Source: Micrococcus porci (lineage in GTDB: Bacteria; Actinomycetota; Actinomycetes; Actinomycetales; Micrococcaceae). From it: a stretch of DNA of 64,000 bases. Under the pieces are notes generated by a model. It was not told the DNA's origin. It made no database searches and saw only the letters and a program-made list of their open reading frames with translations. Both the position numbers and the translations under genes were made by a program. Location of the stretch: NCBI RefSeq assembly GCF_020097155.1, contig NZ_CP083691.1, positions 868,001 to 932,000 on the forward strand, given 5' to 3'. Below, piece after piece: positions 3,002-21,628 of this stretch. Within the stretch, counting starts at the first letter, position 1. The number at the start of each line of letters is the position of its first letter.

Positions 3002-3667
3002 TCAGCCGCGCAGCTGCTCCACGTTCGCGGTGGTCGGCAGGGTGCCGTCCAGGCCGCCGAACGGGTGCAGCTCGCCGGTGACCTCCATGCGGATCGACTC
3101 GTCGATCCCGCCGAGCCGCACCGGCGCGAACCCGGCGGCGCGGATGAGGCGCTCGGCCTCGGTGGCGGTGAGGTGGCCGGGCATCGAGCCGAGCGCCGGG
3201 GCCGTCACGGCGCCGCCGGTGCGGGAGAGGTGCCCGTTGCAGCGGAAGCGGTAGAAGAACTCCGTGCCGGCGCGCAGGCCCGTAAGGGTGACGTGCACCG
3301 CGTAGCCCTGGGCGCGCGACGTCGTCGTGGTGCCGGTGCGGACGGTGGAGCGGAAGTCCGCGTGCCGGGACACCTGCCACTCCACGGTGAAGGAGGCGTC
3401 CGGCATGCCGCCGAAGCCGTCCCGGTTCAGGGGCATGGTCGCCAGGCGCGTCCAGATCACGAAGCCGTCCGGCCACGGATCGCCCGAGGCGACCCCCAGC
3501 GTGAAGGGGTTCGGGCCGGCGGCGGCGTGGGCCGTGCCGGCGGGGGTGGAGATCAGCGCGGCGGCGGCCACGCCGAGCGTCCCGGCGGTCAGCAGCGCGC
3601 GGCGGGGGAGGGGTGACGGCTGGAGCGCGGGGCAGTGGCCAGGGCGGTCAGTCCCGCAGTTCGCCAC
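3002..3667 (-). pseudogene. Chimeric remnant: PhoD N-terminus joined to an oxidoreductase C-terminus
   Basis: The frame starts from a GTG inside the end of hipA. It first encodes the RRALLTAG twin-arginine signal region of a PhoD-type alkaline phosphatase and its N-terminal domain (NPFTLGVASGDPWPDGFVIWTRL; GLRAGTEFFYRF). It then switches, near GGAVTAP, to about 70 residues resembling the C-terminus of NADPH/F420-type dinucleotide-binding oxidoreductases (RLIRAAGFAPVRLGGIDESI). The phosphatase catalytic domain and the oxidoreductase Rossmann domain are both absent. No plausible start precedes the signal. I read this as a deletion junction between two unrelated genes. A related phoD fragment lies at about 5235-5466. 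Confidence 0.7.
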
Positions 3668-4835
3668 GCCGGTGCCGCAGCTCGCGCTCCGCCCCGCGCA
3701 GGGGTGATCCCTCGAACGGCAGTGTGCTGAGGTCGATGCGGTCGGCGGCGGCCAGGGCCTTCCGCATGGCGGCGTCCGCGGCGCGCTGGGGGAGTCCGAT
3801 CGCGTCCGCCAGGGCTTCCCAGTGCCGGCGGCGCAGGTCCTCCACGCGGCCGTCCACGCTCAGGGCCATGGTCATGTCCCGGTAGAGAGCGGTGCAGGGA
3901 ACGTCGTAGACCGGGGCGACCTGCCATCGTCCATCGGGGCCCTGCAGCACGGAGACGTTCTTGGCATGGAGGTCGCCGTTGCCGGTCAGCCACGCGAAGA
4001 GGAACTGCAGGTAGAGGTTGCGGGCCGCCACGGGCCTGGCGGCGGCTCGCGCCGCCAGGGCGCTGATCAGGTCCTCGGTGGTGACGTTGTACTTCTGTGC
4101 CGGGTAGACGTCCAGCACCTGGGCGCCGTCTTCGAGGGCGAGGCGATGGACCGTGCCGTCCTCCTGGTGGCGGCGGTCGAAGCGGCCCACGAGCAGTCCT
4201 GGGGTCCCCTTCCGGTCGGTGACGACAGCGTGACCGGAGACTGGAACGCCCAGGCGTGCGGCGGCCGTGAGGTGCAGCGCCTCGTTCTCGACGAGGTGTG
4301 GGTGCTCCGGGGGGTCGAGCTTGAGCAGCGCGCTGCGACCGGCGAGGGTGAGCGGCACGTTGACCATGGATGCGGAGGCCTTGGCCTGGACCCCGGGCAG
4401 TCCGGTCCGGTCGACGCCGCCGGCCAGGGCGGTGAAGTCCAGGTCTGTGGGATTCTCCGCGGCGAGCGGCGCTGGCTCGTGCGGGGTGGTGCCGCCGGGC
4501 ACGATCTGTGTGTCCCCGGGGACGTCGGCGCCGACAGCGAGGAGGAGCGTGAGCTCGTCGTCCAGGGAGGTCTTGGCGGCGGCCCGCAGCACGCTGAGGC
4601 GGTGGCCTTCCGGCAGCAGCCCGGAGAAGAACGTGGGCAGCCCGCCGCCGGGTGCGGTGACGGCGGCGTCCGTGACGGGGAGCGTGGAGGCGACCGGCGG
4701 CCCGTCATAGCCGGGCTGGTAGGCGAAGGCGACGCCGCCCTGGGCGTTCCGCTCCAACGTGCCGGCGAGGTGGCCCGCCTTGTAGACGTCCGCCGTGGTG
4801 ACCCGCTTGAGGCCGCTCAGGTCCGGGGTGCTCAC
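3648..4835 (-). CDS. hipA: HipA-family serine/threonine kinase toxin
   Basis: 395 residues, GTG start overlapping the hipB stop as GTGA. HipA toxins are Ser/Thr kinases; E. coli HipA phosphorylates glutamyl-tRNA synthetase and causes dormancy. Visible hallmarks are GLPGVQAK at about 145-152 (nucleotide-loop region), LLKLDPP and LVGRFDRR in the N-lobe, the catalytic loop GNGDLHAKN with Asp288 and Asn293, and APVYD with Asp311 in the metal-binding position. The kinase core looks complete and near family length, so the toxin is probably active and held by the upstream HipB. It lies between two phoD fragments, suggesting arrival by recombination. Its 3' end overlaps the chimeric remnant by 20 bases. 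Confidence 0.93.
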   Translation of the reverse strand: MSTPDLSGLKRVTTADVYKAGHLAGTLERNAQGGVAFAYQPGYDGPPVASTLPVTDAAVTAPGGGLPTFFSGLLPEGHRLSVLRAAAKTSLDDELTLLLAVGADVPGDTQIVPGGTTPHEPAPLAAENPTDLDFTALAGGVDRTGLPGVQAKASASMVNVPLTLAGRSALLKLDPPEHPHLVENEALHLTAAARLGVPVSGHAVVTDRKGTPGLLVGRFDRRHQEDGTVHRLALEDGAQVLDVYPAQKYNVTTEDLISALAARAAARPVAARNLYLQFLFAWLTGNGDLHAKNVSVLQGPDGRWQVAPVYDVPCTALYRDMTMALSVDGRVEDLRRRHWEALADAIGLPQRAADAAMRKALAAADRIDLSTLPFEGSPLRGAERELRHRRGELRD

Positions 4836-6340: not shown

Positions 6341-8302
6341 ATGCCCTCTCCCCAGAACCTCTCGAACTTCGTGTGGGGGATCGCGGATCAGCTCCGGGGC
6401 GTGTTCAAGCCGAACCAGTACGGCACGCTCGTCCTTCCGCTCACCATCCTGCGCCGCATGGAGGCGGTCATGGCCCAGCACCGGGAGTTCTTCGCGGAGT
6501 TGGCGGCCAAGGGGCATCCGGACTTCGTCCTGGACAACCTGGTGCAGTCCCGCACGGGCCTGACGTTCTACAACCTCAGCCCCTTCACCCTGGACCGCAT
6601 CCTGCAGGAGCCGGACCTGCTCCGCACCAACCTGCTGGCCTACGTGGACGGGTTCTCCCAGAATGTGGCGGACCTGTTCACCTATTACGAGTTCGACAAG
6701 ACGGTCGCCAAGCTGGACGAGCACGACCGTCTCTTCCTGGTCCTGCAGCAGTTCGCCTCCATCGACCTCTCCCCGGAGACCGTCTCCAACGCGGAGATGG
6801 GCACCCTCTTCGAGGACCTGATCCGCCGCTTCGCCGCCGCCTCCAACGAGACCGCCGGTGAGCACTTCACCCCGCGCGACGCGGTGAAGCTCCTGGTGGA
6901 CCTGCTCACCGCCAACGACGACGACGTCCTCACCGGCTACCCGGTCCGCACCGTCTATGACCCCACGGCCGGCACCGGCGGCATGCTGTCCCTGCTGGAC
7001 GAGCGCCTGCGCCGCATGAACCCGAACGCGGAGGTCCGCCTGTTCGGGCAGGAGCTCAACGACCAGTCCTACGCCATCTGCAAGTCCGAGCTGCTCGGCA
7101 AGGGCCAGGACGCGGACGGCATCGCTCGCGGGGACACCCTCAAGAACGACGCCCACCTGACCGAGCGCTTCGACTACGTCCTCTCCAACCCGCCCTACGG
7201 CGGCGACTGGAAGGCCTCCCGCACCGCGGTGGAGAAGGAGATCGCCGCCGGTGGCGCCACGAACCGCTTCCCGGGCGGCACCCCCGCCATCAGCGACGGC
7301 CAGATGCTGTTCCTCCAGCTCGTCGCCTCGAAGCTCCGCCCGGTCTCGGAGGGCGGCGGTCGGGCCGGCATCGTCCTCAACGGCTCCCCGCTGTTCACGG
7401 GCGGGGCGGGCTCGGGTCCGTCCGAGATCCGCCGCTGGCTGCTGGAATCAGACCTGGTGGATGCGATCGTCGCGCTGCCCACGGACATGTTCTACAACAC
7501 CGGCATCGCCACCTACGTGTGGGTGCTGGACAACAACAAGTCGGCAGAACGCCGCGGCAAGGTGCAGCTGATCGACGCCCGCACCTTCTTCACCAAGCTG
7601 CGCCGCAACGTGGGCTCAAAGAACAAGGAGCTGTCCACGGCGGACCGCCAGCGCGTGCTGGACATCTACCGGGACTTCGACGCCCAGTCCGAGGCCAACG
7701 CCGAGTTCTCCAAGGTCCTCACCGCGCAGGACTTCGGCTACCGGGAGATCACCGTGGAGCGCCCGCTGCAGCTGCGCTTCGAGGTGGAGGACGCCACCAT
7801 CGCGGCGGCGCTCGCCACCAAGCCGGCGGACAAGCTTCCCGTCGACGGCCGCTCGGCTCTCGGGGCCGCCCTCGCCTCCCTGCGTGGCCGGGTGTGGGAT
7901 CACCAGCCCACCTTCGTGCTGGACCTGAAGAAGGCGTTGAAGGAGCATGGCGTGACCGCCGGCGCCCCGCTGGTGAAGGCCCTGACCGGGGCCATCGGCG
8001 TGCACGACCCCAAGGCGGAGGTCGTGATGAACAAGAAGGGTGAGCCGGAGCCGGACGCCTCGCTGCGGGACACCGAACTGGTGCCCTTCGGCCGGGACAT
8101 CCACGAGTACTTCGAGGCCGAGGTCGTCCCCCACGTGTCCGGCGCCTGGATCGACGAGTCCAAGACGAAGATCGGCTACGAGATCCCCTTCACCCGACTC
8201 TTCTACACGTACGTGCCGCCACGCCCGCTCGAAGAGATCGACGCCGAGCTCAAGCAGCTCACGGCCGAGATCATCGAGCTGTTGCAGGAGGTCGAGCGGT
8301 GA
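6341..8302 (+). CDS. hsdM: Type I restriction-modification DNA methyltransferase subunit (HsdM)
   Basis: 653 residues. HsdM binds S-adenosylmethionine and methylates adenine at N6 when complexed with HsdS. The N-terminal helical domain (residues ~1-150) is followed by SAM motif I DPTAGTGG at about 207-214 and catalytic motif IV NPPYGGDW at about 283. Length and motif order are normal and the frame is intact. ATG 6341 has a GAAAGG ten bases upstream. The stop overlaps the hsdS start as GTGA. About 150 bases without a gene lie upstream and should hold the operon promoter. With hsdS broken, methylation by this enzyme may be lost or altered. Confidence 0.95.
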   Translation: MPSPQNLSNFVWGIADQLRGVFKPNQYGTLVLPLTILRRMEAVMAQHREFFAELAAKGHPDFVLDNLVQSRTGLTFYNLSPFTLDRILQEPDLLRTNLLAYVDGFSQNVADLFTYYEFDKTVAKLDEHDRLFLVLQQFASIDLSPETVSNAEMGTLFEDLIRRFAAASNETAGEHFTPRDAVKLLVDLLTANDDDVLTGYPVRTVYDPTAGTGGMLSLLDERLRRMNPNAEVRLFGQELNDQSYAICKSELLGKGQDADGIARGDTLKNDAHLTERFDYVLSNPPYGGDWKASRTAVEKEIAAGGATNRFPGGTPAISDGQMLFLQLVASKLRPVSEGGGRAGIVLNGSPLFTGGAGSGPSEIRRWLLESDLVDAIVALPTDMFYNTGIATYVWVLDNNKSAERRGKVQLIDARTFFTKLRRNVGSKNKELSTADRQRVLDIYRDFDAQSEANAEFSKVLTAQDFGYREITVERPLQLRFEVEDATIAAALATKPADKLPVDGRSALGAALASLRGRVWDHQPTFVLDLKKALKEHGVTAGAPLVKALTGAIGVHDPKAEVVMNKKGEPEPDASLRDTELVPFGRDIHEYFEAEVVPHVSGAWIDESKTKIGYEIPFTRLFYTYVPPRPLEEIDAELKQLTAEIIELLQEVER

Positions 8303-8634
8303 CAGCTCGATCCTCATCCAGGAAGTTCGGGTGGTGCGTTGACCTCGTTACAGACAATGTGCCCGAGGAGTCGGAGTTCCGCGTCGCAGCTGAATCAATG
8401 GTCGGGCATACCGGTCGGCTTGTGACCGATCATCAAATCGACTCGGAGGGGCGCGGCACTTCGTTCCGAGCCGGTGATCTCCTCTTCAGCAAGCTGCGCC
8501 CGTATTTGGCGAAGTCGTGGGTTGCTAATCGTGACGGCGAGGCCCTCGGGGACCTCCATGTGTACCGTCCGGTCGATGAAATGTGGCTCTTCGCCGTTGA
8601 GTGTGGGGGTGTGACGCGCCGGGGCCTGGGGTGA
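8299..8634 (+). pseudogene. hsdS: HsdS specificity subunit, 5' fragment cut by an insertion sequence
   Basis: Starts with GTG overlapping the hsdM stop. The first 95 codons (to 8584) encode the beginning of target-recognition domain 1 (FRAGDLLFSKLRPYLAKSWV; HVYRPVDEM). The frame then runs into the left end of the ISL3-type element and stops at 8632. Removing the element and one copy of the 8-base duplication joins codon 8584/10069 in frame to the fragment at 10065-10967, giving a normal full-length HsdS. So the break is caused solely by the insertion. Confidence 0.9.
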
Positions 8635-10060
8635 GGGCTCGAAAGCGCCGAGGCCCTCGATGATCAGAGGACTCTGACCTCTCCTGATCACAAGGACCTC
8701 GACCATGCCTGAGCCTACGTTGTACTGCCGTGCGCGCGGCGACTACTGCACGTGTTGCGATCTGCTGGTCGGATTGCCCGGGCTGCATGTGCTCACCGCC
8801 GAACGGGATGACCACGACCGGCTGGTGGTGACGGTCGAGTCCGCGCCGGAGCCGATGGGATGCCGCTCCTGCGGGGTGATCGCCCGTGGTCACGGTCGGA
8901 TCGAGGTCAGCCTGGTCGACGCGCCAGCGTTCGGGCGACCGGTGCGGATCATCTGGCGCAAGCGCCGGTGGCTGTGCCCAGATCCAGCCTGCGAGGTCGG
9001 CTCGTTCATCGAGCAGGACGAGAAGGTCGCTGCACCGCGAGCGGTGCTGACGACCCGGGCGTGCCGGTGGGCGATCGAGCAGATCCGCCGAGAGCACGCC
9101 TCCGTCAACGGGATCCGCCGTCAGCTCGGGACAGGATGGCGCACGGTGTGGGACTCGATCCAACCCCTGCTGCAGGCCGCTGACGAGGACCCATCCCGCT
9201 TCGAGGGCGTCGCGATCCTCGGGGTTGACGAGCATGTCTGGCATCACGTCTCGACCAAACCCATCCATCACGGCGGGCGCGGCCCCAAAGAGCTGACCGG
9301 GATGGTCGACCTGACCCGGGACGAGGGCGGGCGCACGAGGGCGCGGTTGCTCGATCTGGTGCCGGGCCGTTCCGGCAGGGTGTACAAGGACTGGCTCGAC
9401 CAGCGCGGCGACGCCTTCCGAGCCCGGATCGAGGTGGCGACCCTGGACCCGTTCCATGGGTACAAGAACGCCATCGATGACCAGCTCGAGGACGCCCGCT
9501 CGGTCCTGGACGCCTTCCATGTGGTCAAGCTGGCCACCACTGTCGTCGATGATGTCCGCCGGCGGGTTCAGCAGCAGATCCACGGCCACCGCGGCCGCAA
9601 GAGCGATCCGCTGTACCGGGTCCGCAACGTCCTGCGCGCCGGCGCGGAGAATCTCACCGATCGGCAACGCGATCGGCTCGAGACGGCCTGGGCCGCTCAC
9701 GAGCAACACATCGAGGTCGAAATCGCGTGGTTGTGCGCCCAGAAGGTTCGCTCCGCCTACCGTCAGGGCACTCATGCCGCCGGGCGAGCAGTCGCCGAGA
9801 AGATCCTCGCCACCTTCACCTCGTGTCCGATCCCCGAGGTCGCACGGCTGGGCAAGACCCTGAACAGATGGCGCCGCGAGTTCCTCGGCTACTTCGACAC
9901 CAACGGCGCCAGCAACGGCGGCACTGAAGCCATCAATGGACTCATCGAACTCCACCGACGCATCGCCCGAGGCTTCCGCAACCGGGACAACTACCGCCTC
10001 CGGATGCTCCTCATCGGCGGCGGGTTAGACATGACACACCACACTCAACGGTGAAGAGCC
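8585..10060 (+). mobile_element. ISL3-family insertion sequence, 1476 bp
   Basis: Both ends are defined by inverted repeats beginning GGCTCTTC. The left reads GGCTCTTCGCCGTTGAGTGT and the right, inward, GGCTCTTCACCGTTGAGTGT, with a repeat of about 24 bases and two mismatches. The element is flanked by a perfect 8-base target duplication TGAAATGT at 8577-8584 and 10061-10068, the length expected for ISL3 elements. One transposase gene fills it. The sharp ends and perfect duplication point to a recent insertion. Confidence 0.96.
8705..10054 (+). CDS. ISL3-family transposase
   Basis: 449 residues. The N-terminus has the Cys-rich zinc-binding segment typical of ISL3 transposases (CTCCDLLVG; CRSCG; CPDPAC), followed by a helix-turn-helix region. 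The DDE catalytic domain shows GVDEHVW (first Asp), ATLDPFHGYKNAI and VLDAFHVVKLA (second Asp region), and SNGGTEAINGLI (Glu). The frame is complete and ends inside the right terminal repeat. It should catalyse cut-and-paste movement of the element at 8585-10060. Confidence 0.95.
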   Translation: MPEPTLYCRARGDYCTCCDLLVGLPGLHVLTAERDDHDRLVVTVESAPEPMGCRSCGVIARGHGRIEVSLVDAPAFGRPVRIIWRKRRWLCPDPACEVGSFIEQDEKVAAPRAVLTTRACRWAIEQIRREHASVNGIRRQLGTGWRTVWDSIQPLLQAADEDPSRFEGVAILGVDEHVWHHVSTKPIHHGGRGPKELTGMVDLTRDEGGRTRARLLDLVPGRSGRVYKDWLDQRGDAFRARIEVATLDPFHGYKNAIDDQLEDARSVLDAFHVVKLATTVVDDVRRRVQQQIHGHRGRKSDPLYRVRNVLRAGAENLTDRQRDRLETAWAAHEQHIEVEIAWLCAQKVRSAYRQGTHAAGRAVAEKILATFTSCPIPEVARLGKTLNRWRREFLGYFDTNGASNGGTEAINGLIELHRRIARGFRNRDNYRLRMLLIGGGLDMTHHTQR

Positions 10061-10064
10061 TGAA

Positions 10065-10967
10065 ATGTGTTCTCGCTACCTCGGGTACCTGGTGCTGAGT
10101 TCCTTCTTCCTGGAACAGGTGAACGCGTCCACGTATGGAACCAAGATGCCGAGGGCAAACTGGGACTTCATCAAGACCATCGAAGTCTGGGCGCCTGACT
10201 TCGACACGCAGCGGTGCATCGCGGACTACCTCGATCGAGAGACCGCCACGATCGACGCCCTCATCGCGAAGCAGGTCGAGCTAATGAACCGGTTGCGCGA
10301 ACGACGTCAGGCAGTCATCGACCGTGCATTTGTCTCCACCTCGGAGATAGTCATTCTTCGACGGCACCTGGTTCTCAATGACTCGGGCGCGTGGGGTGAA
10401 GATCCGACAGGTGCGGACGACGTGGCAGTACTCCGTTCGACGGAGCAGACGGTGGATGGGTACTGGGCCATTAGCGATCCTGCATTGCGAACCTTGTCCC
10501 AGACCGAGCGGCAGAATACCCGACTTCGGGAGGGGGACCTTATCGTGACGAAGACGAGCGGGTCGTTCAAGCATGTTGGGAAGACGACCCTGGTGGACAA
10601 TGAAGTTGCCGAGGGCGGCTACGGGTTCGGAAATTTCATGCAGAGGCTGCGTCTGAAGTCCACGATGATTCCGAAGTTTCTGTGGTGGTTCATGCGGACA
10701 GATCAAGCCCGTAGCTGGATTAATCTGGTCGCGACCACATCTACGGGTCTCATGAACCTCAATGGCTCGACCCTTGGCCGGATGGAGGTTCCGCTGCCTA
10801 GTTTGGTTGAGCAGCGCGAGATCGCCGACCACCTAGACCGCGAGACCGCGAAGATCGACGCACTGATCGCCAAGGCCGAGCGGTTCATCGAGCTCGCCCA
10901 GGAACGCCGTGCCGCCCTGATCACTGCCGCCGTCACCGGCCAGATCGAGATCCCCACGGAGGACTGA
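10065..10967 (+). pseudogene. hsdS: HsdS specificity subunit, 3' fragment
   Basis: 300 residues from an ATG that lies partly in the duplicated target site. It encodes the end of recognition domain 1, the central conserved coiled coil (CIADYLDRETATIDALIAKQ; RLRERRQAV), a complete recognition domain 2 and the terminal conserved coiled coil (REIADHLDRETAKIDALIAK). If translated, this half-plus subunit could still bind HsdM, and half-sized HsdS proteins in other systems can dimerise and recognise new sites; whether it is made here is unknown. Recognition domain 2 is visibly less GC-rich than its neighbours, as is common for exchangeable specificity segments. Confidence 0.85.
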
Positions 10968-10972
10968 CCGCC

Positions 10973-13900
10973 ATGGCCATCCACAACGAGAGCGAGCTCG
11001 AGACCTACATCTGCGAGTACCTGGAGAGGCACGGCTGGCTCTACTCGGCCAACGATGACGGCTACGACCGCAAGAACGCGATCTTCCCCGAGGACGTCCA
11101 CGCCTGGCTGGCCGAGAACCAGCCGGAGGACTACGGGCGTCTCGTGAAGGCCGATGCCCCGGCCTCCGCCCAACAGGCGCAGCGGGACCAGATCACCACC
11201 CGTCTGATCGACGTGCTGAACAAGCCACAGGACACCGGCGTCGGAGGCACCCTCAACGTGCTCCGCAAGGGCTTCAAGGTCGGCACCTCCGCCACCCTGC
11301 GCATGGCCGAGCCGCGGCCGGCCACGAACCTGAACCCAGCTGCCGTCGCCTCCTACGAACACATGCGCCTCCGCGTGATGCGTCAGGTGCACTTCAACCC
11401 GGCCACCAACCAGTCCGTGGACCTGGTGCTGTTCGTCAACGGCCTGCCCGTGGCCACGATCGAGCTGAAGACCGACTCCACCCAGTCCATCGGCCACGCG
11501 AAGAAGCAGTACCGCGAGCGCAACTCGAAGGCCACGCCGCTGTTCGGGTTCGGCACCCGCGCCGTGGTCCACTTCGCCGTCTCCAACCGCGAGGTCTGGA
11601 TGACCACCAAGCTGGCCGGGAAGGACACCTTCTTCCTGCCGTTCAACCAGGGCGACGACGGACACGCAGGCAACCCGCTCAATCCGAACGGCGGTTCCTC
11701 CACGGCCTACCTGTGGGAGCGGATTCTCCAGCGGGACACCTGGCTCGAGATCCTCCAGAAGTTCGTCTTCCTCAAGAAGGAGACCGTGGAGGACGAGTAC
11801 GGCCGCTCGCGCCGGAAGTCCACGCTGATCTTCCCGCGCTTCCACCAGTGGGAGGCCGTCACCACGATGCTCGCCGCCGTCCGCGAGGAGGGCGCCGGGA
11901 AGTCCTACCTGATCGAGCACTCCGCGGGCTCCGGCAAGACCAACACCATCGCCTGGACCGCCCACCGCCTGCTCTCCACCTACGGGGCGGACGAGCAGCG
12001 GGTGTTCGACTCGGTCATCGTGGTCACCGACCGCACCGTGCTGGACGACCAGCTTCAGGAGGCCGTCCGGCAGATCGAGCGGACCTCCGGCACCGTGGTG
12101 GCCGTGGACCGCAAGAACCTCGGCGGAGAGGCCACCAGCAAGTCCGCCCTGGTGAAGCAGACGCTGCTGCAGGGCAACCGGATCATCGTGGTGACGCTGC
12201 AGACCTTCCCCGCCGTGCTTGAGCTCCTCAAAGGTGACTCGACGCTCGCGGGCCGCACATACGCCGTGATCGCGGACGAGGCGCACTCCTCCCAGACCGG
12301 CTCCGCCGCCGCCAAGCTCAAGCGCGTGCTCACCCCGGACGAGCAGGCCGACCTCGAAGACGGGGGAGAGGCGGACACCGAGTCCATCCTCGCCGCCGAG
12401 GTCGCCGCCACCGGACGCCCGGAGAACATCAGCTTCTTCGCCTTCACCGCCACCCCGAAGGACAAGACCCTGCAGATGTTCGGCCGCCCCTCCGGCGAGT
12501 ACGACGAGAAGGGCCAGGAGATCCCGGCCTCCTTCCACCGGTACACCATGCAGCAGGCCATCGAGGAGGAGTTCATCCTCGACGTGCTGAAGAACTTCAC
12601 CAACTACGACACCGCCTTCAAGCTGGCCCTGGCCGGACAGCAGGGCGAGTTCCGTCCCGAAGGCGACCGGGCCGCCGTCGGGAAGCCGACCACCGAAGTG
12701 GACCAGACCGAGGCGAGCAAGAAGCTCATGCGGTGGGTCAAGCTGCACCCGACGAACATCGCGCAGAAGGTCAAGATCATCGTGGAGCACTTCCGCGCCA
12801 ACGTGGCCCACCTGCTCGATGGGCAAGCCAAGGCCATGGTGGTCACCGACTCCCGCGCCGCCGCCGTCCGGTACAAGCGCCAGATGGACCAGTACATCCA
12901 TGACATGGGATACACGGACGTGGGCACCCTGGTGGCCTTCTCAGGCGAGATCACCGACGACGACTTCGGGCTCGAGAAGGTCACCGAACGGTCCATGAAC
13001 CCGTCCGTGACCGGCGACCTGGCGAAGGCGTTCGACGGGGACGGCTACCAGGTGATGATCGTGGCCAACAAGTACCAGACCGGCTTCGACCAGCCGAAGC
13101 TCTGCGCCCTCTACGTGGACAAGAAGCTCTCCGGCGTGCTCGCCGTGCAGACGCTGTCCCGGCTGAACCGCGCGGCGCCCGGCAAGGACACCACTTACGT
13201 ACTGGACTTCGTGAACTCCGAAAACGACATCCAGGCCGCCTTCGAGCCGTACTACGCCGGCGCGAAGCTGGAGACGGTGACGGACCCGAACCTGATCCAT
13301 GACCTGGGGACGAAGCTCGACGCCGCGGGCGTGTACGACTGGGACGAGGTCGACGCGTTCGCCGACGTGTGGGTGGCATGGAAGCCGGGGAGCGGGCAGG
13401 AGGGCCTGCAGGCCGCGCTGGAGCCCGTGGCATACCGGTTCCGCAAGGAGCTGGCGCATGCGCGGATGAACCACGACGAGACGCGCGTGAACGAGCTCGT
13501 GCTGGTGCGCAAGGACATGCGGTCCTTCGTCAGCCTCTACGACTTCCTCTCCCAGATCTACGAGTTCGGGGACACCGAGCACTACAAGCGGGCGCTGTTC
13601 CTGCGGCACCTGGTGCAGCTCGTGGGCGATCAGCCCGGCGGTGAGGAGCTGATCGACCTGAGCGATGTGCAGCTGGTGAGCATCCGGCAGAAGAAGACGT
13701 CCTCGGGGGACATCGGGCTGACCGGTGGGGCCGCGCTGAAGGGGACCACCGCTGTGGGAGGCGGGCAGGCGCGTGAGAAGCAGCGCGGGCCGTTGGAGGA
13801 AGTGATCGAGAAGATCAATGAGATCTTCGCCGGCGAAGGCGTGGATGCGTCCCCGTCCCAGCAGGAGGCGTGGGTGAGTGCCCTCGTGGCGCCGCTCATG

Positions 13901-14239
13901 GAGGACGAGAAGCTGCTGGGGCAGGCCGGAGCGAACTCGCTGGAGCAGTTCCTCGCGAGCCCGAACCTGGAACGGTCAGCGATGGGCGCCGTGTACGCGA
14001 ACGAGGACGCCTTCGCGAAGATGACGGACATCGTGGGCAGGGGCGGGGACCCATCCAAGATGATCGTCGCTGCCATCGGGGAGTACCTGTACTGGAAAGT
14101 GCGGGGCGAGGGGGCTGGGCCGGTGGACGTTGCCCATGGACGGTCCGCCGTTTTCGCTGACGAAACGGCCCCTTCGCAGGGTACTTCCGTCGATGAAAGG
14201 GCGAGTGCGACGCCGTCGCGCGTCCGGAAGGGGAACTGA
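10973..14239 (+). CDS. hsdR: Type I restriction enzyme endonuclease/translocase subunit (HsdR)
   Basis: 1088 residues. The N-terminal PD-(D/E)xK nuclease site is visible as VDLVLF with Asp150 and IELKTD with Glu164 and Lys166. The superfamily 2 motor follows: Walker A HSAGSGKT at about 316-323, Walker B DEAHSS at 435, motif III FTATP at 491, and the later helicase half with KYQTGFDQP and a QTLSRLNR-type motif VI. HsdR pumps DNA by ATP hydrolysis and cuts unmodified DNA in complex with HsdM and HsdS. The frame is intact. It begins six bases after hsdS and is followed after one base by the next gene, so it belongs to one operon. Without an intact HsdS, restriction is probably off. Confidence 0.95.
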   Translation: MAIHNESELETYICEYLERHGWLYSANDDGYDRKNAIFPEDVHAWLAENQPEDYGRLVKADAPASAQQAQRDQITTRLIDVLNKPQDTGVGGTLNVLRKGFKVGTSATLRMAEPRPATNLNPAAVASYEHMRLRVMRQVHFNPATNQSVDLVLFVNGLPVATIELKTDSTQSIGHAKKQYRERNSKATPLFGFGTRAVVHFAVSNREVWMTTKLAGKDTFFLPFNQGDDGHAGNPLNPNGGSSTAYLWERILQRDTWLEILQKFVFLKKETVEDEYGRSRRKSTLIFPRFHQWEAVTTMLAAVREEGAGKSYLIEHSAGSGKTNTIAWTAHRLLSTYGADEQRVFDSVIVVTDRTVLDDQLQEAVRQIERTSGTVVAVDRKNLGGEATSKSALVKQTLLQGNRIIVVTLQTFPAVLELLKGDSTLAGRTYAVIADEAHSSQTGSAAAKLKRVLTPDEQADLEDGGEADTESILAAEVAATGRPENISFFAFTATPKDKTLQMFGRPSGEYDEKGQEIPASFHRYTMQQAIEEEFILDVLKNFTNYDTAFKLALAGQQGEFRPEGDRAAVGKPTTEVDQTEASKKLMRWVKLHPTNIAQKVKIIVEHFRANVAHLLDGQAKAMVVTDSRAAAVRYKRQMDQYIHDMGYTDVGTLVAFSGEITDDDFGLEKVTERSMNPSVTGDLAKAFDGDGYQVMIVANKYQTGFDQPKLCALYVDKKLSGVLAVQTLSRLNRAAPGKDTTYVLDFVNSENDIQAAFEPYYAGAKLETVTDPNLIHDLGTKLDAAGVYDWDEVDAFADVWVAWKPGSGQEGLQAALEPVAYRFRKELAHARMNHDETRVNELVLVRKDMRSFVSLYDFLSQIYEFGDTEHYKRALFLRHLVQLVGDQPGGEELIDLSDVQLVSIRQKKTSSGDIGLTGGAALKGTTAVGGGQAREKQRGPLEEVIEKINEIFAGEGVDASPSQQEAWVSALVAPLMEDEKLLGQAGANSLEQFLASPNLERSAMGAVYANEDAFAKMTDIVGRGGDPSKMIVAAIGEYLYWKVRGEGAGPVDVAHGRSAVFADETAPSQGTSVDERASATPSRVRKGN

Positions 14240-14240
14240 G

Positions 14241-15167
14241 ATGGCACATCCCAAGACACTGCAGGTCTTCCTGATGGACGGTGTACCCACCGGTCGGCTG
14301 AAGTGCACCCTCGACAACTGGACGGGCCTCGTCTACGTGGTGCCACGCACCAGTCTCAACGCGGACGGGCACCCCGAGGCGTTCGAAGGCACCGGTGTGT
14401 ACCTGCTGCTGGGGCAGGACGCCGATTCCGGCGACGACGTCGTCTACGTCGGGCAGGCTGTCGGGCGGGCCAACGGCAACGGCATGGTAGGCAGGATCCG
14501 GGAGCACGTCCGGAAAGAGGCGCACGACTTCTGGAACCGGGCCATTCTCCTCTCCACCCTCGGGGACACCTTCGGCCCCACGGAGGTGACCTACCTGGAG
14601 CACTTCTTCCACCAGGCTGCATCCACGACCGGGCGCTTCACCGTGGACAACGCGGTGGCGCCCTCCCAGGGCAACGTCACTGAGGAGAAGAAGGCGGAGC
14701 TGGAGGAGTACGCCGACAAGGCCAAGATCCTGATCAGTGCCCTGGGGCATCGCGTCTTCGAGAGCGCTGACGGCTCACATGCCGTGGTCGCGGCGGGCCG
14801 GACCACCCAGGCGCCCGAGGCGGTGCCGGAGCGCACCCTGTTCACCATGACGGTCAACGGCGTGGGTGCGCAGGGGCACCCGACGCCGGACGGGTTCGTC
14901 GTCCTGCGGGGCAGTGGTCTCATGGAGGGGCTGCGGCCCAGCGCGCCCGCGGGTGTCCGGGCGAGCCGCGAGCGCTTTGCCGGCCACATCGGCGCTGATG
15001 GGGTGCTGATCGAGGACGTCTCCTTCACCAGCTCCTCGGCCGCGGCCGGATTCGTGGCCGGCGGGAGTATGAGCGGACCGTCCTCATGGCGGGCGCCGGA
15101 CGGGCGCACCCTCGGCGAGGTCGAGGCCGCCTCGGCCAAGACGGTACCCATCGAGGACGACGCCTGA
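14241..15167 (+). CDS. GIY-YIG nuclease-fold protein with C-terminal DUF4357
   Basis: 308 residues. A GIY-YIG domain occupies about residues 25-150: GTGVYLLLG ('GIY'), VVYVGQA ('YIG'), the expected Arg in GRIREH, and the metal-binding Glu in TYLEHFF. All catalytic positions are therefore present. The C-terminal ~90 residues match the DUF4357 pattern (RERFAGHIGADGVLIED, FTSSSAAAGFV, SSWRAPDGRTL). Proteins of this architecture recur beside restriction-modification genes, but their job is unproven. The ATG lies one base after the hsdR stop and its stop overlaps the following start (TGATG). It is probably a DNA nuclease or nicking component of the island. Confidence 0.8.
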   Translation: MAHPKTLQVFLMDGVPTGRLKCTLDNWTGLVYVVPRTSLNADGHPEAFEGTGVYLLLGQDADSGDDVVYVGQAVGRANGNGMVGRIREHVRKEAHDFWNRAILLSTLGDTFGPTEVTYLEHFFHQAASTTGRFTVDNAVAPSQGNVTEEKKAELEEYADKAKILISALGHRVFESADGSHAVVAAGRTTQAPEAVPERTLFTMTVNGVGAQGHPTPDGFVVLRGSGLMEGLRPSAPAGVRASRERFAGHIGADGVLIEDVSFTSSSAAAGFVAGGSMSGPSSWRAPDGRTLGEVEAASAKTVPIEDDA

Positions 15168-16708
15168 TGGAGATGCACTCGACCGCCGCGGATGCCGCCG
15201 TCGACCATCCGTGGGGTGCCCAGAATGACGCCCAAGGGCCGGGGACGGGGCGCTCCGGGTCGTTGACCGCGAACGTCATGACCGTCGCGGACGCACTGCG
15301 TGACCCGCGTCTCCGTGTCCCCGAATATCAGCGTCCCTACACCTGGTCCACGAAGAACGCTGTACAGCTCGTCGAGGACATCCGTCGCTTCCGTGCGGCC
15401 GCGTCCTACCGGATCGGCACCATGATCGTGCACGCCGAGGACGGCTGGCTGGACATCGTTGACGGCCAGCAGCGGTACATGACCTTCGCCCTGATCGCGC
15501 TCGCACTGCAGGAGGTCCTGGGCGACACCGCCGAGCGCGCCGAGCACCAGCGTGCGGCCCTGGACCGCGCGGCGGCCATCGAGCTGCCGCCGGGCCGCCG
15601 GGACGTGTCGGAGCGCCACGTGGTCGAGAACCACCGCCTTATCCTGCAGACGTTCCGGTCCTGGAAGAGCTCCGAGGTCGAGGACTTCGCGGACTACTTC
15701 TTGGACCACTGCACGTTGGTGCGTCTGGTCGTCAACGACCTCGACGCAGCATTCCAGATGTTCGACTCGCAGAACACCCGCGGCCGGGCGCTCCTGCCCA
15801 CCGACCTACTGAAGGCCTACCACCTCCGCGCCTATGGTGAGGCCACATCGGACCGGGCGGCGATCCTCGCGGCCGTGCGGGAGTGGGAAGCTACCCCGCC
15901 GTTCGAGATCCACCATCTCTTCTCGCGTCTGCTCTATCCGATCCTCCGCTGGAGCGCCGGTGAGTCCCTGCCGCGCGACGGCTTCACCGCGTCCCGGATC
16001 GGAGCGTTCAAGGGGATCTCCGCGGGGCCGACGGGCCTCGGCCGACTGCCCTGGGCGCACGGGCTTCTCATGGCCAAGGCCCACGTGGACGACTACAACG
16101 GGCGAAACGCCACGCTGATCGCGCACGGTGCCCTTCCTCCGCTGGAATTCCCGTTCCAGCTGACCCAGCCCGTCATCGACGGCGAGATGTTCTTCCGCCT
16201 CGTGCGCCACTACACCCGGCTCGCGAGGGACCTCGGCGTCTCCGCGACGGACGCGGAGCAGACCGCCGGGGACGACGCCCGTCGTGGAAGGGAGAACGGG
16301 CGATTCCAGACGATCACCCGGCTCGTCCGGGCCACCGGTACCGGCGCTGGCTACCGCTACACACAGGAGCTCTACGGAGCGCTGCTGCTGGCCTACGCGG
16401 ACCGGTTCGGCGACCACGACATCGAGCGCGCCGCTCTCGTGCTCGCACGGCATGCCTTCGCATTGAGAACGCGGTTGACGCGGGTCTACCCGCGTTCCGT
16501 GGAACTTCACGCGCTGGGCCAGCACGGGGCGCCGGACCTGGAGGACCGGGTGAACCTGTTCCGTCTGATGAGGAGCAGCCTGGACCCCGCCGCCGTTACC
16601 GGGCGCGTGGCGGCCCTCCCCGGGCCGTACGTGGACGAGGCCTCCCCGGTGGAGCGTCTCTACTCGGATACGCCCTGGGACACGGAGGAAGCCCACGATG
16701 CAGACTGA
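15167..16708 (+). CDS. DUF262 (GmrS/ParB-like) protein without HNH domain
   Basis: 513 residues. The DUF262 fold is shown by VPEYQRPYTW, the nucleotide-binding DGQQR at 99-103, and FQMFDSQNTRGRALLPTDLL. DUF262 is the NTP-hydrolysing, DNA-engaging half of type IV GmrSD enzymes and of SspE. No DUF1524 HNH nuclease can be seen in the helical C-terminus, so this resembles a stand-alone GmrS. It may depend on the DUF1524 domains of the two following proteins. The start overlaps the preceding stop; a second ATG six bases on is possible. The C-terminus overlaps the next gene by 11 bases. Confidence 0.8.
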   Translation: MEMHSTAADAAVDHPWGAQNDAQGPGTGRSGSLTANVMTVADALRDPRLRVPEYQRPYTWSTKNAVQLVEDIRRFRAAASYRIGTMIVHAEDGWLDIVDGQQRYMTFALIALALQEVLGDTAERAEHQRAALDRAAAIELPPGRRDVSERHVVENHRLILQTFRSWKSSEVEDFADYFLDHCTLVRLVVNDLDAAFQMFDSQNTRGRALLPTDLLKAYHLRAYGEATSDRAAILAAVREWEATPPFEIHHLFSRLLYPILRWSAGESLPRDGFTASRIGAFKGISAGPTGLGRLPWAHGLLMAKAHVDDYNGRNATLIAHGALPPLEFPFQLTQPVIDGEMFFRLVRHYTRLARDLGVSATDAEQTAGDDARRGRENGRFQTITRLVRATGTGAGYRYTQELYGALLLAYADRFGDHDIERAALVLARHAFALRTRLTRVYPRSVELHALGQHGAPDLEDRVNLFRLMRSSLDPAAVTGRVAALPGPYVDEASPVERLYSDTPWDTEEAHDAD

Positions 16709-18755
16709 GAAGCACGTGCCTGAGGCGCTGACGATCGAGGAGGTCTTCACCGCCGCCCGGCACTACCGGGTGCCGGTCTACCAGCGGGCCTACGCCTGGA
16801 CGCAGGTCGAGATCTCGACACTGCTCACGGACGTGCGCCGCGCTCGCCTCGGCTCGGAAAAGCCGGATACGCAGGGAGCCTTGTCCGACTACTACCTCGG
16901 CTCGCTGGTGGTGAACCGAGCCACGACTCCCGAGGACGTGCCGATCGACGAGGTGGTCGACGGGCAGCAGCGCCTGACCACACTGACGGTGCTGGCGGCC
17001 GTCGCGGAGCATGTCATCCGAGCCGGTGTCCTCGACCCCCGGGCGTTGGCCGTCCTGGATTACGAAGGGCGCCCCGAGGCCGGGGAGGACCTCGCGACCC
17101 TCCGCCATCGGGGCGCCCCCGCCGGGACGTCGTTCCAGGTGGACGCCATCGGGGTGGCCGTCGAGACCATCGCTGCGGCCTGCCGGCGGGCCATGGACCG
17201 GCAAACCCCGGCAGACGATCAGGAGGTGATGTTCGACGGCGACGACCTCGCGTACCTCTGGAAGCATGTCCGGTTGCTGCGCACCGAACTTCCGAAGGGC
17301 ACGGACCTCAACCACTATTTCGAGGTGATGAACACCCGCGGTGAGCAGCTCGCCAAGCACGAGATCCTGAAGGCCACATTGATGCGGCCTCTCCAGGACG
17401 CCACGGACCGGAAGGTGTTCGCGCACGTCTGGGACGCCTGCGCCGTTCTGGACCGCCACATCCAGCTCCAGTTCTCGACGGAGCGGCCGAAGGATGGCGG
17501 TGAGGCGGCAAGAGACGCCGTCTTCGGAGCGTCCTGGTCGGCCCTCCTCACACGGGATTTCGCGTCGCTGCGGGCAGCTCTCGCGCCGAGCCTGACCGCG
17601 ACGGTGTCGGGCGCCCGCACCATCATTGGGGCTCTGCGGGCCGCCGGGCAGACCGCCGTGGAGTCCGGGTCCTCGTCCGACCAGCGCCAGGACGACGCCG
17701 ATACCGGCGCCTACGGGACCATCGTCGACTTCCCGAACTTGCTGCTGCATGTGCTGCGCGTGATGCAGGAGAAGGGTGAGGGGGCCGAGCCCGGCCTGCC
17801 GCGGTGGGGCCAGGACTCAACGGGGGCCGTGCGGCTCGAGGACGGCTCCCTGCTGGAGCAGTTCGCCCAGCACGGCCAAGACGACGCGGCCTGGTCTCAG
17901 CGCTTCCTCGTGGCGCTGCTCCGCATGCGCCTTCTGCTGGACACCTATGTGATCAGGACTCTGGCGACGACGGGAACACAGGCGGACGAGGAGAACTGGG
18001 TGCTCAGCCGAGCTCAGAAGCTCGAGACGGAGTCCGGCGAGCGCTCTCCGCGCCGACGGCTGGGTGTGAAGAACACCTTCCAGGATCCGCAGGTCCAGGA
18101 CGCCGTCCGGAACCTTCAGGCCATGTTCCAGGTCACCGACACGCGCCGCACGTCCAAGTACTTCCTGTACCGCATCCTGCGATGGCTGCATGCGCAGCCG
18201 GTGGACAGTGTGGACGGCGTGGCGTTCCAGCACATGCTGGAAAATCTGGCGCGGGAGCGCCTCCGCGCCTACGAGGCGGACAAGACCTGGGATGCCGGCG
18301 TCAACGTCCCCAACTTCGTCTTCAACGCCCTGGACTACATCCTCTGGGACGCAGGCCGGACATCGCCCATGGAACGGGAACATCTGCGGGAGCCCCTCAG
18401 CGATGTCGAACAGGAGGTGCTCCGCCGGCGCGCCGACGCCTTCCGGTTCCGGTACCGAACCTCGGTGGAGCACTTCTACCCCGTGGTTCCGGGTGAGGAA
18501 CAGGAGGTCTTGACCGCGGAGGACGTCAACCGTTTCGGGAACCTATGCATCATGGGCCGACGCGAGAACTCCCAGCGGAACAATCTGATGCCCGTCTCGA
18601 AGGTGAAGCAGTATTCTTCGGACGAGCAGAGCCTCAAGTTCCAGCTCATGGCCGGCATCCTTCACGCCGAGGGCGACTGGGACGTCCCCCAGATCAAGGA
18701 GCACGGGAACAGAATGCGGCGGGTGATCCAAGAGTGGCAGGGCAAGCGGCCCTGA
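16698..18755 (+). CDS. DUF262-DUF1524 (GmrSD-type) type IV restriction protein
   Basis: 685 residues. N-terminal DUF262 has VPVYQRAYAW at 25-34, DGQQR at 88-92 and HYFEVMNTRGEQLAKHEILK. A long helical middle leads to a C-terminal DUF1524 HNH-like nuclease: SVEHFYPV with His592, then NRFGNLCIMGRRENSQRNN. This is the architecture of GmrSD and SspE, which cut or nick foreign DNA carrying unusual modifications (glucosylated hydroxymethylcytosine) or DNA lacking phosphorothioation. Which trigger this one uses is unknown. It overlaps the stand-alone DUF262 gene by 11 bases, indicating joint translation. Confidence 0.85.
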   Translation: MQTEKHVPEALTIEEVFTAARHYRVPVYQRAYAWTQVEISTLLTDVRRARLGSEKPDTQGALSDYYLGSLVVNRATTPEDVPIDEVVDGQQRLTTLTVLAAVAEHVIRAGVLDPRALAVLDYEGRPEAGEDLATLRHRGAPAGTSFQVDAIGVAVETIAAACRRAMDRQTPADDQEVMFDGDDLAYLWKHVRLLRTELPKGTDLNHYFEVMNTRGEQLAKHEILKATLMRPLQDATDRKVFAHVWDACAVLDRHIQLQFSTERPKDGGEAARDAVFGASWSALLTRDFASLRAALAPSLTATVSGARTIIGALRAAGQTAVESGSSSDQRQDDADTGAYGTIVDFPNLLLHVLRVMQEKGEGAEPGLPRWGQDSTGAVRLEDGSLLEQFAQHGQDDAAWSQRFLVALLRMRLLLDTYVIRTLATTGTQADEENWVLSRAQKLETESGERSPRRRLGVKNTFQDPQVQDAVRNLQAMFQVTDTRRTSKYFLYRILRWLHAQPVDSVDGVAFQHMLENLARERLRAYEADKTWDAGVNVPNFVFNALDYILWDAGRTSPMEREHLREPLSDVEQEVLRRRADAFRFRYRTSVEHFYPVVPGEEQEVLTAEDVNRFGNLCIMGRRENSQRNNLMPVSKVKQYSSDEQSLKFQLMAGILHAEGDWDVPQIKEHGNRMRRVIQEWQGKRP

Positions 18756-18800
18756 CACCTCGGGACGATCTGGCCTCAGGGCCCCCGTTAGGCTCGTCCC

Positions 18801-21341
18801 ATGGTCGCCGCGCGTGAAGTCACCCTTCAGGAACTCCTCGGGGGCTCCTACCAGTACACGGTCCCGCTCTATCAGCGGACGTACTCCTGGGGCCGCCCGC
18901 AGTGGCAGCGACTGTGGGAGGACGTCGTGGATGTCGCCGACCACCGGCGGGACAACCCTTCGGCGACTCACTTCATCGGCTCCCTCGTTCTCGCCGGCTT
19001 CCGGGACAACGGGCCCGGTGGCGTCCAGCGGTGGCTCGTGGTGGACGGGCAGCAGCGGCTGACGACGCTGACGCTCCTCCTCGCCGCTGTCCGCGACCAC
19101 CGGGCTGAGCACGAAGGCCCCATGCACGCCGATCGGGTCAACGAGAAGTACCTGGTCAACAAGTGGGAAGACGGCGATCTCCGCTACAAGGTCCTGCCCA
19201 CCCAGGCCGACCGCGCCGCCTACCGCGGGCGGATCGAGCACGCCCCGGACGCTGCCGAAGGCTCCAGGATCAGCGAAGCCCACCAGTTCTTCCTGACGAA
19301 GCTGCTCGGGTTGAGTCAACCGTCTGCCGCCGGTGAAGAGGAGCCGCTGACCTTGGCGGAGGTCGAGTCCGCCGTCGTCGCCGGCCTGTCGATCGTGTCC
19401 GTGACCACCGGGGAGAACGACAACGCCCACCGCATCTTCGAGTCGCTGAACAACACCGGCCTCAAGCTCACCCAGGGCGACCTGCTCAGGAACTACCTGT
19501 TCATGCAGCTGCCCACACGGGCGGATGAGGTCTACACCACCCTGTGGCTCCCGTTGCAGAACCTGCTCTCCAATGAGGAACTGGAGACCCTGTTCTGGCT
19601 CGACCTGGTGCAACAGGATCCCAAGGTCCGCCAGACCGAGATCTACGCGGGGCAGCAGCGTCGCATGCGTGACCTGCAGGACGAGTCGCAGGTCAGGGCG
19701 GAAGTCGGAAGGTTCCTGGCGTTGGGGCGTCTCTACGACGTCATGCTCCGCCCGGAGAAGGAGAAGGACGCCGCAGTGCGCTTCCGCTTGGCACGCCTGC
19801 GCGCCTGGCGCACGACGACGACGTTCCCGATCACACTGCACCTGATGGAGCGCCGGTCCTTGGGGGACATCGATTCGGACGAACTGGCCCGTGCGTTCCT
19901 CTACCTCGAGTCGTACCTGGTCCGACGCCTCGTCTTCGGCCGCTACTCCGACGGTCTCAACACCACCTTGCTCGCGGCCACGGCCGACGTTCAGGGCCAG
20001 GACGATCCGGCGGATGCCCTGCAGCGCTTCCTCTCCACCGGACGGAAGCACTTCGCCTCCGACGATCAGATCCGCCAGGCCGTGATGACGGCACCCTTCT
20101 ACACGACGGGCCGGGCGGCCCACCGGAAGCTGATCCTCCGGTGGATCGAGGAGTCGTACGGCAGCAAGGAGCCGGTGGACCTCGACAGCGCGACCATCGA
20201 GCACGTCATGCCGCAGACCCTCACGGAGGAGTGGGAGCGCGCTCTGGCCGGCCAGCTCGAGGCGCACCAGGACCTTCGAGAAGTGCACACCGAGCTCCTG
20301 CACACCTTGGGCAACCTCACCCTCACCGGGTACAACAGCGAGCTGAGCAACGGGCCCTTCGCGGTCAAGCGTGCGGAGCTGGCCAAGAGCGGCATCCGCA
20401 TGAACCAGGAGATCTCCGCTGAGCCGGTATGGGGTCCCGCGCAGATCCGTGCGCGCGCCGAGCGGCTGGCGGACCGGATCGTCGACATCTGGCCGGGGCC
20501 CTCGGCAGAGGCCGCCTCCGGGGTCGCTCACACGGCCTGGCAGACGCTGACGGATGCCGTCGAGGCCATTCCCGCCGGGTCCTGGACCTCCTACGGCGAA
20601 CTCGCACGGCTGATCGGAAGCCATCCGGTCCCCGTGGGGACCTACCTCGCACGGACGGCCCTGCCGCACGCTCATCGTGTGCTCCAGGCGGGAGGCACCG
20701 TCTCTCCGTCCTTCCGGTGGACCGACGTCCACCGCACGGACGATCCGCACGACGTCCTCGCGGCCGAAGGCGTGCGCTTCTCCGAGGACGGACGTGCCGA
20801 CGGCGGCCAGCGGCTGGTGGCGGAGCAGCTCGCCGAGCTCATCGACGTCGACGTCGACCTGATCGATCCGCGGTCGCTCGCCGCCCCGGGCAACGACCCT
20901 GCGCTGCGGGACCGCTGGGTCGACCGACTGCACGACCACAACGATCCCGAATCGGCCCGCGCACTGATCGAGGTCCAACGAGGCTGGGTCGAGCGCGGTG
21001 GCCGGGCGGAATTCGCGGACAATGCCGCCGGCGGTTGTTTCCTGGTCGTCCCGCGCACGTCAGCACGCGCCATCTGGCCGGTGATCCTGTACCCGACGTA
21101 CGGCGTCGAGGTCGTCTTCTATCACCTGGCGAAGTGGCCTCCCTTCACGGACGAGGCGCTTCTCGACGACTTCCGGGGACGTCTGAATCTCATCCCCGGG
21201 CTGGAATTCGGCCCTGAGGCTCTCCGCCGGCGCCCGAGCATCAGGCCGCAGACCCTTCAGCCGGCCGCGGCGCAGGAGGCGTTCCTCGATGCGCTGGAGT
21301 GGTTCCTGCACACCGTCCAGGAGGACGACAGAAGTGCCTGA
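18801..21341 (+). CDS. DUF262-DUF1524 protein fused to an alkyltransferase-like domain
   Basis: 846 residues. DUF262: VPLYQRTYSW at 21-30, DGQQR at 82-86, and HRIFESLNNTGLKLTQGDLL. DUF1524: IEHVMPQ with His468, then HTLGNLTLTGYN and the downstream Asn. Residues about 579-660 look like an alkyltransferase-like (ATL/MGMT) DNA-binding domain: AIPAGSWTSYGELARLIG, then HAHRVLQAGGTVSP, with Ala where MGMT has the acceptor Cys (PCHRV). ATL proteins bind O6-alkylguanine without repairing it. A further ~180-residue C-terminal domain is unrecognised. The gene follows the previous one after 45 bases, so it may have partly independent expression. It is probably a modification-sensing type IV nuclease. 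Confidence 0.82.
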   Translation: MVAAREVTLQELLGGSYQYTVPLYQRTYSWGRPQWQRLWEDVVDVADHRRDNPSATHFIGSLVLAGFRDNGPGGVQRWLVVDGQQRLTTLTLLLAAVRDHRAEHEGPMHADRVNEKYLVNKWEDGDLRYKVLPTQADRAAYRGRIEHAPDAAEGSRISEAHQFFLTKLLGLSQPSAAGEEEPLTLAEVESAVVAGLSIVSVTTGENDNAHRIFESLNNTGLKLTQGDLLRNYLFMQLPTRADEVYTTLWLPLQNLLSNEELETLFWLDLVQQDPKVRQTEIYAGQQRRMRDLQDESQVRAEVGRFLALGRLYDVMLRPEKEKDAAVRFRLARLRAWRTTTTFPITLHLMERRSLGDIDSDELARAFLYLESYLVRRLVFGRYSDGLNTTLLAATADVQGQDDPADALQRFLSTGRKHFASDDQIRQAVMTAPFYTTGRAAHRKLILRWIEESYGSKEPVDLDSATIEHVMPQTLTEEWERALAGQLEAHQDLREVHTELLHTLGNLTLTGYNSELSNGPFAVKRAELAKSGIRMNQEISAEPVWGPAQIRARAERLADRIVDIWPGPSAEAASGVAHTAWQTLTDAVEAIPAGSWTSYGELARLIGSHPVPVGTYLARTALPHAHRVLQAGGTVSPSFRWTDVHRTDDPHDVLAAEGVRFSEDGRADGGQRLVAEQLAELIDVDVDLIDPRSLAAPGNDPALRDRWVDRLHDHNDPESARALIEVQRGWVERGGRAEFADNAAGGCFLVVPRTSARAIWPVILYPTYGVEVVFYHLAKWPPFTDEALLDDFRGRLNLIPGLEFGPEALRRRPSIRPQTLQPAAAQEAFLDALEWFLHTVQEDDRSA

Positions 21342-21418
21342 CAGCCCTGCCAGGGGCAGGTCCTGGCGAGGCGCTGACCCCCCCCCACCCCCTCCACCCC
21401 ACCCAGTACGCTCGCCCC

Positions 21419-21628
21419 ATGAAGATCGGTCTCCGCAAGCCCAGCCTGAAGAAGTCCATCAAGGCCCGCACCACGGGCCGCGCCAAGCGTGCGATCAAGC
21501 GCAAGGTCATCCCCGGCTACGGCCGCAAGGGGATGGGCTGGCTGCGCGATCCGAAGCGCGCCGCCTACAACGCCGTCTACCGGCGCACCACGGTCGGCCT
21601 GGGTGACGTTCTGAAGATGTTCAAGTGA
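21419..21628 (+). CDS. Small basic protein of unknown function
   Basis: 69 residues, about a third Lys/Arg. The N-terminal part KIGLRKPSLKKSIKARTTGR is followed by YGRKGMGWLRDPKRAAYNAV. It resembles short, highly basic proteins found in many Gram-positive genomes and some phages, whose function I do not know; RNA or DNA binding is plausible from charge alone. The last 30 residues recur almost unchanged at 22583-22669, beyond the enoyl-CoA hydratase gene. The upstream stretch 21375-21418 is C-rich with no clear promoter. Confidence 0.6.
   Translation: MKIGLRKPSLKKSIKARTTGRAKRAIKRKVIPGYGRKGMGWLRDPKRAAYNAVYRRTTVGLGDVLKMFK

Follow-up and report, generated by a model that had tools for sequence, protein, structure and literature searches.

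Do the four nuclease-type genes that follow a type I restriction-modification (RM) operon in Micrococcus porci encode one effector, or are they separate enzymes stacked at one site? The question arises from the window analysed here, a stretch of 64,000 nucleotides (positions 868001-932000 of a 2.65-Mb single-contig genome), in which all module genes lie on the + strand in the order hsdM, interrupted hsdS, hsdR, GIY, A, B and P5 (gene calls with Pfam, PADLOC and NCBIfam matches). The original prediction took the last four for one multi-subunit effector of undescribed composition. Much of its description was borne out: the four genes run in one direction behind hsdR, with a gap of +1 nt from hsdR to GIY, a one-base overlap of GIY and A (TGATG), an 11-nt overlap of A and B and 45 nt between B and P5, so that defence-type nucleases are fused to a type I RM operon and GIY, A and B are translationally linked. 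The motifs that can be seen in the four proteins are intact, and hsdS is indeed broken. The proposed single effector did not hold, since A and B form a conserved pair with TgvAB architecture and both GIY and P5 occur without it. We consider it highly probable that the locus is a modular restriction island, in which a type I RM operon is joined by stacked, separate and probably modification-dependent (type IV-like) nucleases, and we regard the four genes not as one complex but as restriction layers that complement each other.

The pair formed by A and B is central to this reading. A (15167..16708, +) combines a DUF262 domain (GmrSD_N, E 1e-25) with DUF7834 (E 9e-45); its likeliest start is 15167 or 15173, as against a mechanical open reading frame (ORF) start at 15086. 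The protein of about 513 amino acids (aa) consists of these two domains only, with no DUF1524 match in the Pfam scan and no nuclease domain found. The earlier description of A as a DUF262-only protein is to be extended by DUF7834. B (16698..18755, +) carries DUF262 (GmrSD_N, E 8e-27) and a weakly matched DUF1524 His-Me nuclease domain (GmrSD_C, E 1e-7; H592, N615, N624), and its nearest named relatives, 96 and 91% identical, are from Micrococcus luteus. A profile of A found 545 relatives in the GTDB species set, of which the best 80 were kept, giving 79 distinct loci; 12 loci from other genomes among 297 of the same order brought the total to 91, with four loci in both sets. The order search had listed 15 genomes, one being the own genome (G000; G and L numbers denote genomes and fetched loci), while G279 and G110 were dropped because what matched there was a DUF262 region belonging to another gene; where a genome gave a second match, this was a fragment of A or the DUF262 region of B. 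B comes next after A, in the same orientation and with frame ends within 900 nt, in 88 of the 91 loci, and the three loci without B (L003, L014, L061) stop at a contig edge. DGQQR is present in A in 92/92 readable rows of 94, and B has the histidine in 85/85 and both asparagines in 84/84 readable rows of 90, the window included in each case. H592, N615 and N624 are also invariant in 34 aligned B sequences, and the QR, DGQQR and FxxxN motifs of both A and B are invariant among readable rows save for one N in place of D (34 B rows). Within the pair, the His-Me H...N...N signature occurs in B only.

This layout recalls TgvAB of the Vibrio cholerae island VPI-2, which is described, in the excerpts of PMC11411939 used here, as a type IV system that needs both proteins, depends on DGQQR in both and on the His-Me residues of TgvB, and acts on phages with modified cytosines; it lies within a type I RM operon, with an IS256 element in hsdS of one strain (Fig. 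1 legend). In both cases a nuclease-less DUF262 gene precedes a DUF262-DUF1524 gene, with DGQQR in both proteins and H-N-N in the second, the setting is a type I RM operon, and an insertion sequence (IS) has entered hsdS (ISL3 family here). Unlike the pair in these excerpts, the one in M. porci follows hsdR, has a GIY-YIG gene in front of it and a single-chain GmrSD gene after it, and is actinobacterial in sequence. Vibrio jasicida has a locus in which hsdM-hsdS-A-B, with the same Pfam domain content, starts 1.35 kb after hsdR. On account of the shared layout, the motifs and this locus we call the pair TgvAB-like; A and B are a conserved pair of their own and, judged from sequence, look like a two-protein system of the TgvAB type. 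GrwAB, as far as covered by the consulted part of PMC12409362, is likewise a GmrSD-type system of two proteins, each with DUF262, but GrwB has an extended C-terminus with several unknown domains; this assignment was ruled out, as A lacks a long multi-domain C-terminus and has a single DUF7834. RloF, the DUF262 protein of Campylobacter jejuni type I RM loci (excerpts of PMC4619093), also belongs to such an operon but sits between hsdS and hsdR; one A homologue, from Brevibacterium yomogidense, bears the name RloF in a database. The matches of A, B and P5 to solved structures fall mainly in the DUF262 domain.

Three further observations concern A-B pairs in general. A is split into two open frames in L058 and L063, and B likewise in L033, so some pairs look broken. 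Beside the pair in L164 lies a frame of 1851 aa (11087-16639, -) that contains helicase domains and an MTES_1575 nuclease domain and, at its C-terminus, a DUF4357 match below the cut-off. Among 72,556 plasmid records, 1012 contained B matches below 60% identity, and 900 of the 1012 were from Klebsiella.

P5 (18801..21341, +) has DUF262 and DUF1524 on one chain (GmrSD_N, E 2e-34; GmrSD_C, E 2e-28; PADLOC Orf5, E 3e-142), with DGQQR and the His-Me residues present. The prediction of two DUF262-DUF1524 proteins therefore stood for B, if by a weak match with an invariant H-N-N, and for P5, to which an MGMT-like domain (DNA_binding_1, E 9e-8) and a further C-terminal region have to be added. In the MGMT-like domain the acceptor cysteine, which we take to sit in the PCHR motif of O6-alkylguanine methyltransferase, has given way to Ala, Gly or some other residue in the 14 rows, out of 15, that can be read. 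With the cysteine absent, a role as repair methyltransferase was ruled out and the domain would be a reader at most. SspE, DndI (9JFL; excerpts of PMC11662687), BrxU and Eco94GmrSD share the N-terminal DUF262 with DGQQR and the DUF1524 domain with its His-Me motif, but P5 differs from them by the cysteine-less domain and the C-terminal region. The presence of PF01035 in GmrSD homologues, mainly from Streptomyces, was already noted in the cited part of PMC4619093.

P5 also has a distribution of its own. Relatives at E <= 1e-20 occur in 61 of the 297 order genomes, own included, and the 10 best loci other than the own one showed no A-B pair or GIY nearby; among these, L192 contains fragments of hsdM as well as a further DUF262 gene, and P5 is broken in L198. 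An orthologue (76-98% aa identity) is present in 6 of 11 genomes of the genus, own included, and G297 and G301 have GmrSD genes merely 28-31% identical to it. In G298, G300 and G303 P5 is found without A-B, and the DNA homology to the window starts at 18747-18749, just before P5. A -10-like TAGGCT (18789..18794, +) lies 6 nt before the ATG of P5 as a putative leaderless promoter, and TA(G/A)GCT-N6-ATG is kept in 6/6 genus copies, including that of G305 with its different upstream DNA. Such a motif corresponds to the usual layout of leaderless promoters in actinobacteria. For the 10 more distant loci, in which the true start of P5 is uncertain, no such motif was found ahead of the first start codon. 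The breakpoint and the promoter-like motif further weaken the proposal of a single unit, and by its sequence P5 is a predicted third enzyme that occurs apart from A-B.

GIY (14241..15167, +) is a candidate GIY-YIG nuclease with a C-terminal DUF4357/RAMA-like domain (Pfam DUF4357, E 2e-11; PADLOC candidate family PDC-S14, E 5e-85). Searches of Pfam, NCBIfam and PDB sequences returned only DUF4357, apart from two PDB entries with E values of 0.28 and 0.53, so that Pfam confirmed the DUF4357 part of the earlier assignment and gave no GIY-YIG match. The GIY-YIG part is instead visible in a conserved residue set: G52, Y54, G71, R85, H89, E120 and N137 are invariant in two alignments (32 and 29 sequences, the window's included), and Y69 is present in at least 90% of their rows. 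Presumably Y54, Y69, R85, H89, E120 and N137 are the active-site residues. A model of the protein resembles the GIY-YIG domains of UvrC and R.Eco29kI and the RAMA domain of MPND at modest Z, and Foldseek gave no match at E <= 0.001. Binding by MPND is unaffected by N6-methyladenine (6mA) according to the excerpt of PMC9963953. The 6mA-dependent wH-GIY-YIG enzymes and the GIY-YIG-RAMA fusions treated in the consulted part of PMC11037411, where prokaryotic fusions of the latter kind are named as future work, likewise join a GIY-YIG nuclease to a candidate modification reader; in GIY, by contrast, the reader is DUF4357 according to Pfam and RAMA-like in structural models only. A GIY homologue abuts hsdS in 8 of 20 fetched loci, and GIY is found without the A-B pair. 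In six GIY loci without type I genes, a scan of ten neighbour genes returned families that include helicases, a D12-type adenine methyltransferase, PhoX and RhuM.

The comparison within the genus shows how the parts move. In G299 the DNA is collinear with window positions 14232-21622 at 97% identity (89% over the last 0.9 kb) and the four proteins are 94-99% identical (GIY 99, A 97, B 95%), yet the hsdR upstream of the block is merely 54% identical in aa to that of the window. In G303 hsdR is 97.6% identical over 1056 aa, and a Mokosh-like (MkoC-like) helicase and an Mrr endonuclease lie between hsdR and P5, in the position of GIY-A-B. P5 is preceded in G298 by a PDC-S14/RAMA protein and an MmeI-type enzyme, and a relative of the window's hsdR was not found in that genome; G304 has hsdR, an ORF of 290 aa that matched no family, and then the right flank. 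The order in G305 is P5-A-B (L219, 10006-16469), with an A-B of another clade, 48 and 46% identical in aa to the window's, whose A groups with that of G029 (support 100/99); A-B has therefore probably arrived at least twice beside P5. Type I genes were found in the fetched stretch of at least 13 of the 79 GTDB A loci, a lower bound because the hsdM, hsdS and hsdR profiles were grown from this window. Separately, a contig labelled as a Brevibacterium senegalense metagenome-assembled genome (L003, 1-3579) is 95.4% identical over its full length to window 13013-16591 and is probably a misbinned Micrococcus contig. The in-frame stop of P5 in G299 (L217/L218) comes after codon 705, and homology runs on to residue 843.

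How closely the four genes belong together can be judged from these distributions. For one multi-subunit effector of a new kind speak the tight gene spacing and the collinear block in G299 next to another hsdR. All four are collocated, however, in only 1/297 genomes of the order and 2/11 of the genus (own included), 77 of the 79 GTDB A loci lack GIY and 78 lack a true third DUF262 gene within the fetched stretch, and P5 stands without A-B in three genomes of the genus. Rare co-occurrence, which the original prediction had itself named as refuting, thus largely holds, with G299 as the case in the prediction's favour, and on the co-occurrence and the breakpoints we reject the four-subunit effector, which we regard as very improbable. 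A description of the four-gene set did not turn up in search listings of openly licensed PMC literature, mostly judged by listing. If P5 is set aside as independent, GIY-A-B might still be a functional unit of three genes, as suggested by the translational coupling, by their joint occurrence in G000, G299 and, up to the contig end (hsdR-GIY-A), L003, and by their aa identities of 99, 97 and 95% in G299. Against this, no case was seen outside this lineage: L003 and L046 are the only GTDB loci with GIY in the fetched stretch, GIY lies about 0.9 kb from A in L046, and the two order genomes that have both genes include G029, where they are 1.6 Mb apart. We therefore hold such a unit to be unlikely. 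In a more specific and quite improbable version, GIY-A-B would be a three-protein type IV system: the GIY-YIG-RAMA protein would equip a TgvAB-type enzyme with a second nuclease and a reader of adenine methylation, and the cassette would move onto different type I RM operons, taking its cue from whether the HsdM mark (6mA) is present or has been lost. GIY and P5 were also considered as a unit and rejected: both occur in four order genomes (G000, G029, G181, G215) and are close only in G000, being 0.46 Mb apart or on different contigs elsewhere.

Several points nevertheless weigh against the stacked, modular island that we favour. GIY, A and B are coupled by overlaps, and all four genes persist together in G299 beside a different hsdR, though P5 has the in-frame stop there. 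P5 adjoins A-B in 3/3 genus genomes that have A-B, and two genomes from a different genus carry a third GmrSD gene behind A-B (G104, L169 12699-14840; G294, L168 5163-7298), the one in G104 with a RAMA/DUF4357 domain at its end; cooperation of the enzymes, for example through complementary spectra, is therefore possible. Of the eight closest fetched GIY homologues (37-45%), seven have no type I gene nearby. The TgvAB likeness is one of layout and motifs as published for VC1767/VC1766, not of direct sequence comparison, and the model of A aligns to SspE, DndI and BrxU with root-mean-square deviations of 17.6, 7.0 and 13.2, a sign that its domain arrangement differs from that of the solved enzymes.

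The state of the operon itself bears on whether the block is active. The frame of hsdM (6341..8302, +) is intact (N6_Mtase, E 2.5e-57; HsdM_N, E 3e-18; PADLOC MTase_I, E 9e-258), and hsdR (10973..14239, +) matches HSDR_N (E 3e-15, the sole such match in the genome), SWI2_SNF2 (E 5e-22) and, under that model's cut-off, NCBIfam hsdR (E 1e-57). Between them an ISL3-family element (8585..10060, +; transposase 8705-10054; NCBIfam transpos_ISL3, E 7e-83; DDE_Tnp_ISL3, E 8e-55) splits hsdS into a 5' part (8299..8584, +), whose frame enters the IS (PADLOC Specificity_I, E 4e-8 on ORF 8299-8634), and a 3' part (10065..10967, +; Methylase_S, E 3e-13) that is 38-44% identical in aa to hsdS of five sister genomes. 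The ends of the element match, with an 8-bp repeat, TGAAATGT, on either side (read by eye). An intact set of hsdM, hsdS and hsdR is accordingly absent, and with hsdS broken the type I system probably neither restricts nor methylates, while the nucleases downstream may remain functional. The alternative is that the IS is polar and the block behind it little expressed: the element lies upstream, two other copies in the genome are 100% identical (query 8586-10061), and a sigma-70 promoter scan found none. We think this rather unlikely, given the conserved motif before P5, the open frames and intact motifs of GIY, A, B and P5, and a transposase that points in the same direction as the block, which makes read-through possible. 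A terminator scan returned 3 terminator-like sites against 5.9 expected, none of them between GIY, A, B and P5. The island is bordered on the left by a gene for a HipA-like kinase (3648-4835, -; HipA_C, E 2e-41), and its right flank includes an enoyl-CoA hydratase gene.

By analogy with their relatives, the modular island would work in layers. The type I RM operon, when complete, would cut unmethylated DNA. A and B would act jointly, both DUF262 domains binding and hydrolysing nucleoside triphosphates and sensing modified phage DNA that the DUF1524 domain of B would cut, and P5 would sense and cut in the same manner within one chain, aided by an alkyltransferase-like base reader. GIY would cut DNA bearing a modification recognised by its RAMA-like domain, and together these enzymes may contribute to phage defence.

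The finding shifts from a four-part effector of unknown kind to known, testable parts, probably a TgvAB-like pair and two other nucleases in a swappable island, the kind being already known and the stack unusual. Through this pair, enzymes of the TgvAB type would be represented in Actinobacteria, and DUF7834 is probably the domain that forms the C-terminus of the TgvA-type partner, a part whose role is left open in the cited part of PMC11411939. The comparison within Micrococcus further shows that restriction modules are exchanged beside hsdR and that A-B pairs of two clades adjoin one GmrSD gene.

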